Part shown: positions 30,225 through 32,071 of the stretch, piece by piece
Numbering within the stretch: the first letter of the stretch is position 1
Layout: every line of letters begins with the position of its first letter
Assembly: GCA_025453655.1 (NCBI GenBank)
Contig: JALOPX010000006.1
Location: 1 to 46,102 of the forward strand
From: Candidatus Krumholzibacteriia bacterium
GTDB lineage: Bacteria; Krumholzibacteriota; Krumholzibacteriia; Krumholzibacteriales; Krumholzibacteriaceae
Reading direction: 5' to 3'
Length of the DNA: 46,102 nucleotides
The notes under the pieces: generated by a model
What the model saw: the letters and a program-made list of their open reading frames with translations, nothing else
Database searches by the model: none
Told to the model about the DNA's origin: nothing
Program-made: the position numbers and the translations under genes

Positions 30225-30575
30225 ATGAGACGGGCCATGTTGATGATGATATCAGCCGTATTGATGCTGTCGTTCTTCTCGTCGGGATGCAAGGACGATT
30301 CTCAGGAAGCCTCCGAGACCGGTCTCAGGATCGTCACGGATGGATGCATCGAATTCGGCATTTATATCCATATAGATGACGAGCCTCAGGGCATGATCTC
30401 TTCGCTCGAGCCGGCCAACATCCTTCTTCCCGCGGGAACATACGAGCTTTTCGCGCGCAGCAACGCGGCATGGAACGGCAACGAGCTCTGCTGGACGGGA
30501 CAGTACACGGTCAGCGACGGTTCGCTGACGACGGTCACGCTTACCTGCAGCGAAGAGCAGTTCTGCGGAGATTGA
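30225..30575 (+). CDS. Small predicted lipoprotein
   Basis: Signal peptide with lipobox-like FFSSGC; strong upstream SD GAGGAGG. Confidence 0.65.
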   Translation: MRRAMLMMISAVLMLSFFSSGCKDDSQEASETGLRIVTDGCIEFGIYIHIDDEPQGMISSLEPANILLPAGTYELFARSNAAWNGNELCWTGQYTVSDGSLTTVTLTCSEEQFCGD

Positions 30576-30633: not shown

Positions 30634-30670
30634 AGAAGGCCCTTTCTCATTATGAGCGAAGGGCCTTTTC
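30634..30670 (+). terminator. Rho-independent terminator after the lipoprotein gene
   Basis: AAGGCCCTT (30636-30644) / AAGGGCCTT (30659-30667) with inner CTCA/TGAG pairing, followed by TTC. Confidence 0.65.
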
Positions 30671-30740
30671 ACGTCTATCCCCGCATATTGTAACATCAAG
30701 CCGGACAAGGAATTAAAAAAATAGAGCCTCCCGGCCCGCA

Positions 30741-30757
30741 TGGCACATTACTTGCGG
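30741..30757 (+). promoter_or_regulatory. Predicted sigma-54 (-24/-12) promoter TGGCACATTACTTGCGG
   Basis: Matches TGGCACR-N4-TTGC with the exact -24/-12 spacing; intergenic, upstream of the MglA-like gene. Confidence 0.7.
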
Positions 30758-30766
30758 AAACCGCAA

Positions 30767-30898
30767 ATTGGTCGGGGTGGATTCTACAGATACCGACGTA
30801 GACAGTGAACACCCTAGCTCAAGTGACGCGACCTGCTCCGGATTCTGCTTCCTTGCCTGTGCACCGAGTGAGCGGGATGTAGGCCGCCCCGACTTCAA
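30767..30898 (+). ncRNA. Candidate structured RNA / leader upstream of the MglA-like GTPase gene
   Basis: GTCGGGGTGG (30771-30780) pairs with CCGCCCCGAC (30884-30893), 10 bp with one G-U; inner CTACA/TGTAG and CCC-GCTCA/TGAGCGGG helices; non-coding in the ORF track. Confidence 0.5.
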
Positions 30899-30919
30899 AC
30901 TCTAAGGAGATAACAGGAG

Positions 30920-32071
30920 ATGGCTGTTTACAATTACGCCGGCGGAGAGGTCAACATCAAGATAGTTTACTACGGCCCGGGTCTGAGCGGGAAGACCACG
31001 AATCTCGAGCACATGTATTCGAAGCTCCCGAGGGAGAACAAGGGCAAGATGGTCTCCATGAAGACTAGGACGGACAGGACGCTCTTTTTCGATTTTCTCC
31101 CGATAGAGGTCGACGGGCTCAACGGGATGACCGCGCGTTTTCTCCTTTACACCGTTCCCGGACAGGTCTATTACAACGCCACGCGAAAACTGGTTCTGAA
31201 GGGGGCCGACGCCGTGGTTTTCGTGGCCGATTCGGATCCCGAGAGGATGGACGACAACAGGGAAAGCCTCTCCAACCTCGAGGAGAACCTCAACGAGCTG
31301 GGATTGTCGCTCTCCGATATTCCGTGGGTCATCCAGTACAACAAGCGCGATCTTCCGGACCGCATGGAAATCGGGGCCCTCGACGCGGCTCTCAACAAAT
31401 GGAACGCGACCTCCTACGAGGCCGTCGCCACGACGGGGCAGGGTGTTTACGAGACCTTCGAAGGAATAGCCCGCAAGGTTTTCAGATCTCTCAACGAAGC
31501 CATGAAGAATCCGGCGGCGGCGCCGCAGAATGAAGATAAACCCGCCTCAGTGGAGGTCAGGCCCGAGGTCGTGGCGAAGGGGAAAAAGGGAGTTTATGAC
31601 TCAGAGACGGACAAGAGCGAATCTTTGTGTTACGCAGAGGAGAGAGAAGAGGAGCACGAATCTGTCTCTGAGTTGATTGAAAACGTACTCAGCGACGGGG
31701 AGAAGAAGGAAAGCATAGACATGAACTCCACCAGGGAAGGGTATGAGGATTACGGGCACATGGTGGAGCTTGGAAACGGAGCGGCTTCCCCCGATGCGGG
31801 AAAAGCCGCCGCTGACGAATCCCCGGCCGGCGACCCGGCGGGATTGGATATCATAAACGATCCGCTGGAAAAGCTCTGCGAATGCCCGGGCGGGGACGCC
31901 GGCGGGGAATCGACGGCCGCCGGGCCTCGCAAGGAAGAGGCTGCAGCCGGCGCCGTCGCCTGCATGGTCGCCGAAAAGACGCTCACGGTCGCGCTCGAGC
32001 TGTCCGAGGAGGAGATCCGGGGCAACGTCCCGGTCAGGATCATCCTCGATATAAAAGTCGCCTCGTCCTGA
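30920..32071 (+). CDS. MglA-like small GTPase with long acidic C-terminal extension
   Basis: YYGPGLSGKTTNLEHMYSKLP (P-loop), DFLPIEVDGLNGMTARFLLYTVPGQVYYNATRKLVLKGADAVVFVADS, QYNKRDLP. Confidence 0.9.
   Translation: MAVYNYAGGEVNIKIVYYGPGLSGKTTNLEHMYSKLPRENKGKMVSMKTRTDRTLFFDFLPIEVDGLNGMTARFLLYTVPGQVYYNATRKLVLKGADAVVFVADSDPERMDDNRESLSNLEENLNELGLSLSDIPWVIQYNKRDLPDRMEIGALDAALNKWNATSYEAVATTGQGVYETFEGIARKVFRSLNEAMKNPAAAPQNEDKPASVEVRPEVVAKGKKGVYDSETDKSESLCYAEEREEEHESVSELIENVLSDGEKKESIDMNSTREGYEDYGHMVELGNGAASPDAGKAAADESPAGDPAGLDIINDPLEKLCECPGGDAGGESTAAGPRKEEAAAGAVACMVAEKTLTVALELSEEEIRGNVPVRIILDIKVASS

Follow-up and report, generated by a model that had tools for sequence, protein, structure and literature searches.

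A structured leader acting in cis is a known kind of RNA. The GEMM element (c-di-GMP-I riboswitch), which controls motility and pilus genes, and the orphan riboswitch candidates lie in 5' UTRs, are closed by a terminal helix, carry highly conserved loop nucleotides, precede a single downstream gene class and are about 120 nt long. The leader RNA described here, which lies before an mglA-type gene of Krumholzibacteriota, resembles them in all of these respects but differs in giving no Rfam match (GEMM included), in being without an identifiable terminator or sequestering platform, and in its confinement to one phylum among the genomes searched. A long GC-rich closing helix is shared with 6S RNA and SRP RNA, from which the leader is set apart by its mRNA-leader position and branched fold, and again by the lack of an Rfam match.

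The product of the downstream gene resembles MglA, known from Myxococcus xanthus and Thermus thermophilus, in its GTPase domain (residues 1–192), which aligns with solved MglA chains. Unlike canonical mglBA, the gene is a long paralogue with an extension of ~190 aa, has no adjoining mglB, and is preceded by a sigma-54 promoter and the leader. The promoter can be compared with sigma-54-dependent pilA promoters of the PilR/RpoN type, as the sigma-54 sites of the genome include those of type IV pilus genes and NtrC-type activators are encoded; unlike the transcripts of those promoters, the mglA transcript would start with an RNA of deep conservation. From the comparisons given below, this RNA rather probably represents a new structured 5' leader family that begins at a sigma-54 start or a few nucleotides from it, is co-transcribed with the extended mglA and would add a second layer of control in cis.

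The long mglA gene and its surroundings

The analysed window is contig C183 (46,102 nt) of a Krumholzibacteriota MAG (2.55 Mb in 199 contigs). The leader, its promoter, the GTPase gene and the signals discussed with them all lie on the forward strand, to which the coordinates refer. The gene at 30920..32071 starts with ATG at 30920 and encodes a 383-aa MglA-type GTPase (phmmer; Pfam Arf/Ras), and the preliminary description of the stretch had named an MglA-like GTPase here; residues 1–192 match solved MglA chains with E about 2e-67 (phmmer). No Pfam domain was found in the ~190-aa extension, the C-terminal stretch of which is conserved. The flanking genes tested for an adjoining MglB gave no Pfam roadblock match. 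The Shine-Dalgarno sequence AAGGAG of the gene is at 30904..30909, outside the leader fold.

A second, canonical mglA paralogue, ~53% identical, is located elsewhere in the genome. The canonical gene is present in nearly every genome of the phylum and the long paralogue in all families but one. The copies of the canonical gene that were taken from a related family lie downstream of an mglB-like gene, and neither a sigma-54 element nor a leader accompanies them. Among the loci examined, the combination of sigma-54 element and leader was found only at the long mglA.

Upstream of the leader, a terminator had been proposed to isolate it, and a Rho-independent terminator-like hairpin of the preceding gene (GGCCCTTTC...GAAGGGCC-TTTT) is indeed present at 30637..30668. 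A similar hairpin with a T-run occupies the equivalent position in most homologues in the alignment upstream of the -24 element, and a simple terminator scan of the window did not flag it on account of its long loop. The preceding gene (30225–30575) is small and lipoprotein-like and gave no Pfam match. Family-wide it precedes the leader, from which the terminator-like hairpin separates it. Gene order around the leader and mglA is conserved across the family, and hence linkage to mglA alone does not discriminate between a cis leader and a free RNA.

Sigma-54 promoter and upstream region

The -24/-12 element TGGCACATTACTTGC at 30741..30755 is an exact match, as previously read, and is the sole exact TGGCAY-N5-TTGC within the 46-kb window. 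The genome includes rpoN (Sigma54_DBD, E=2.6e-64) and ~19 strong Sigma54_activat matches, the activators being of the NtrC type. Genome-wide, 29 exact sigma-54 sites were found versus 6 for a reversed-pattern control; thus, the majority of these sites are probably real. At orthologous loci the GG-N10-GC element and the RNA are both kept, the element being present in 27/27 RNA-bearing homologues. Transcription is predicted to start at 30767, 12 nt 3' of the C of the -12 element, by the sigma-54 rule. In each of the same 27 homologues the first helix of the leader (P1) begins 12–16 nt past the -12 TTGC, a position corresponding to roughly +1 to +5 of the predicted sigma-54 transcript. To our knowledge, the pairing of a sigma-54 promoter with a leader at a fixed +1 is unusual.

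A further conserved region (TAAC ... TTAAAAAAA) at 30694..30729 was revealed by alignment of the 110 nt upstream of the -24 element from 34 loci, and may be an activator or UP-like site. In relatives it takes the form TAAC-N2-GTTAAAAAA, 25–26 nt before the -24 element; the copy in the window is degenerate. The hexamer AACNNGTT is enriched upstream of the 29 exact sites, 17 of which have a copy with at least 5/6 matches versus 7.4 ± 2.3 in mononucleotide shuffles, and perfect copies number 5 versus 0.4. Several mglA promoters have AACNNGTT 25–26 nt before the -24 element. At sigma-54 sites across the genome the hexamer, often as TAACNNGTTAAAAAA, occurs 25–40 nt upstream of the -24 element, and the mglA loci show a second element, TAACTC, ~40 nt upstream. 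AACNNGTT/TAACNNGTTAAAAAA together with TAACTC is a candidate for the site at which the activator of a pilus/motility regulon binds.

Distribution and conservation of the leader

The structured core of the leader extends from 30771 to 30893 (123 nt here, 118–129 nt in the family) and matches the covariance model with 119.6 bits. A DNA search detected the leader in 14/20 family genomes, and covariance model R1 in 19/20 family genomes and in 3/5 genomes of the sister family. The one family genome without the leader also lacks the long mglA, so that the leader is found in 19/19 family genomes having this gene. It occurs once per genome, always adjoining the long mglA; the exception, G011, has two contigs with one copy each. 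In 82 genomes of the phylum no copy was found away from the mglA locus using R1, which may miss diverged forms, and no R1 match was obtained at the other sigma-54 promoters of the genome. Searches with R1 of 25 genomes, most of them from other lineages in which MglA has homologues, and of 48 genomes of the phylum to which an Eisenbacteria MAG (L021) belongs revealed no leader, though diverged forms may escape the model.

Diverged forms were identified by reading the upstream regions of the long mglA in other families, and have P1-like ends and a CACCC box. They are present in families f2 (L176), f7 (L170 and L172) and f8 (L169 and L171). In family f5 (genomes G026–G029; L178, L180, L182 and L184) the long mglA still has its sigma-54 element, followed by a UTR of 52–73 nt, and in families f3 and f4 the element is weak or absent. 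It therefore seems that the promoter predates the RNA or has persisted better.

Mean pairwise identity is 67% over the RNA core and ~73% over its interior, as compared with 33% in the stretch from promoter to helix, 42% between the RNA and ATG, 42% in the 60 nt upstream of the -24 element, and 41% at 4-fold degenerate codon sites of the GTPase gene. Comparison of these sequences and of the fold described below lends strong support to the promoter, to the P1/P1b stem, to selection acting on sequence as well as fold, and to an exclusive association with the long mglA.

Secondary structure of the leader

The outer helix P1, formed by GTCGGGGTGG (30771..30780) and CCGCCCCGAC (30884..30893), had been drawn in the preliminary description and is supported by one pair with compensatory exchange of CG and UA, seen in 6 sequences. 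Inside it, CTACA (30784..30788) and TGTAG (30878..30882) form P1b, also drawn before, in which two pairs are changed on both sides. A swap test, which looks for closer pairing of a 5' strand with its own 3' strand than with the corresponding strands of relatives, gave p<5e-5 for P1, 0.0009 for P1b, 0.019 for P2 and 0.07 for P3, values that are uncorrected for shared ancestry. Negative controls therefore matter, and unrelated segment pairs gave p=0.15–0.70.

The next helix inward had been proposed as CCC-ta-GCTCA pairing with TGAGCGGG. It can be drawn, but two of its pairs are broken in 4–5 of the 19 sequences; it shows no co-variation, performs no better than shuffled sequences and gave a swap p of 0.47. 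A better fit is provided by P3, formed by CCTGCTC (30832..30838) and GAGCGGG (30870..30876), with 94% of cells in the alignment paired and with U-G/U-A and G-C/G-U alternations. Changes in P3 are of the wobble kind, and none in the alignment affects both sides of a pair. P3 is retained in L094 and L009, where a strand of the alternative inner helix is lost. A small helix, P2, spans the near-invariant CACCCUAGCU box; in the sequence of the window itself it is weak. Thus, in place of the single long rod with an apical region first suggested, the shape that best fits the alignment is branched, with the P1/P1b stem closing a junction that carries P3 and the small P2.

Folded singly, the leader of the window is moderately unusual (z=-2.3). 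The consensus fold of 19 homologues has an energy of -58.9 kcal/mol, compared with -34.2 ± 4.0 after shuffling of the columns (0/200; z=-6.2), and the paired fraction falls from 93% to 42–54% when the structure is slid by 1–3 columns. A switch helix, P1*, pairing a GGGGUG 5' strand with the internal CACCC box, received no support (swap p=0.69, 20 representatives); seeming co-variation of P1* occurs in L011–L013 and L176. Co-variation among the leader homologues pointed to no alternative pairing.

The possibility that the conserved stretch is a DNA element, such as downstream activator or nucleoid-protein sites composed of inverted repeats, and not an RNA structure, is very unlikely in light of these data. 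Sigma-54 activators can bind downstream of promoters, and the GGGGUG, CACCC and CCCC segments do form repeats. However, a DNA site would not account for the compensatory changes, the helix-specific co-variation seen in the swap tests, or the U-G/U-A alternations in P1 and P3, and folding is more favourable for the forward strand than for the reverse complement (-58.9 versus -53.7), albeit by a modest margin.

Two segments of the RNA stand out by their sequence. The box CACCCTAGCT at 30810..30819 is near-invariant in alignments A1–A3, is mostly unpaired in the consensus and may be a recognition element; its CACCC persists in the diverged families. The apical segment GCTTCCTTGCCTGTGCAC inside P3 (30847..30864) has an invariant GCTT with near-invariant flanking bases in 22 sequences. 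The best-conserved unpaired bases are those of the CACCCUAGCU box and of apical P3 (GCUUCC...UGCAC). This is the pattern of a recognition site, and the bases look like a pocket for a ligand or protein.

These bases bear on the main rival explanation, a constitutive mRNA stabiliser or translation spacer in which the 5'-terminal helix protects against 5'-end-dependent decay without sensing any signal. The position of P1 at the very start of the predicted transcript in every RNA-bearing homologue, its high stability and the mostly open ribosome site that follows are as such a stabiliser would have them. For that purpose a helix alone suffices, yet the loops (the CACCC box and GCUUC) are among the best-conserved bases, and a plain stem has no need of the interior identity found. 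This explanation is considered unlikely. Favoured over it is a leader that responds to a ligand or protein and so adjusts translation or mRNA stability.

Relationship of the leader to the mglA mRNA

The preliminary description had recognised no riboswitch and no 6S or SRP core in the leader, and Rfam 15, in which GEMM, 6S, SRP and tmRNA are included, gave 0 matches in the window at the gathering threshold. At a permissive threshold, the leader and 12 homologous loci gave matches at chance level that were inconsistent between homologues. No paper on Krumholzibacteriota RNAs or on sigma-54/MglA leaders was found in the literature searched. The present RNA family is therefore absent from Rfam and from the literature found, and it adds an uncatalogued and well-supported RNA family in a little-known phylum, linked to a gene that in other organisms determines the polarity of motility.

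The leader is non-coding, as had been stated. A leader peptide was rejected on the basis of stops in all three frames, core lengths of 118–129 nt in mixed phase and the lack of a shared uORF. The earlier statement that no T-tract follows the stem likewise agrees with the alignment, in which none is consistent across homologues; CTTTTTC is present at this place in L006 and L010. No conserved terminator between the RNA and the gene was found among the homologues, and a Shine-Dalgarno sequence and start codon stand close behind the RNA in all of them.

From the lack of a conserved terminator we infer co-transcription with mglA, and a cis leader is favoured over a processed RNA. The suggestion of a regulated RNA or a cis-acting leader for the GTPase is supported by the conservation, the cis form being the more probable one, and the inner fold given with it is not. 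An RNA processed from the mglA mRNA or terminated before it, with a role in trans as a protein-sequestering RNA or as a small RNA under sigma-54 control, would fit a discrete, closed structure of ~125 nt beginning at the promoter, and the short T-run behind the stem in a few genomes (L006 and L010) would suit it. The missing terminator and the closely following translation signals speak against such an RNA, as does the lack of any R1 match away from mglA in 82 genomes of the phylum, and it is improbable.

The ribosome-binding site is predicted to be largely accessible in the folded leader. Its openness (means over homologues) is ~0.7 (0.68) when folded and falls to 0.47 with the 5' strand of P1 blocked, a modest change that is not seen in every homologue. 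A role of GCUUCCUU as an anti-Shine-Dalgarno sequence was not favoured, given the mostly open ribosome site predicted and the lack of uniform occlusion on blocking of P1.

Proposed role of the leader in the sigma-54 regulon

Exact sigma-54 sites precede pilB-, pilA- and pilM-like genes on contig C60 of this same genome (G000; L190, L191 and L192), with start codons ~120–130 nt downstream, and an RR-GGDEF gene on contig C83 (L196). The pilin behind its site has an N_methyl domain, and its best PilA-type model is Myxococcus PilA, below the cut-off of that model. The PilB-type ATPase has a c-di-GMP-type MshEN domain. The shared sigma-54 sites and AACNNGTT would tie the mglA transcript, by correlation, to a pilus-related regulon.

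In the proposed scheme, a sigma-54 activator, probably that of the pilus-related regulon, would control the synthesis of the transcript, and the leader in its folded form, with its conserved loops as a ligand- or protein-binding pocket, would set the amount of MglA per transcript post-transcriptionally. With P1 closed, the ribosome site is mostly open in the predicted structures; expression is therefore probably favoured by the folded state, and opening of P1 may lower expression via translation or mRNA stability. As the change in openness on blocking P1 is not uniform, 'folded = ON' is a weak preference.

A nucleotide signal would be the natural candidate ligand, given that the sigma-54 set includes the GGDEF response regulator and PilB with a c-di-GMP-type MshEN domain. 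It is conceivable, though doubtful, that the leader is a new riboswitch class, with an aptamer fixed at the sigma-54 +1 and perhaps a nucleotide second messenger as the ligand, placing the polarity GTPase of an uncultured phylum under two-step control by an activator and then by an RNA ligand. With a leader that always lies at a sigma-54 start, a single transcript would combine activator-dependent synthesis with sensing at the RNA level, and at 125 nt the conserved element is small enough for in-vitro synthesis and direct ligand screening.

The UTR of family f5 is too short for the RNA and forms a natural contrast to the leader-bearing families in regulation. One sigma-54 activator domain is also located on contig C60 (13014–13514). 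At L191, ~11–130 nt past the sigma-54 site, the predicted pilA-like leader has strong hairpins (-44 kcal/mol over 119 nt).
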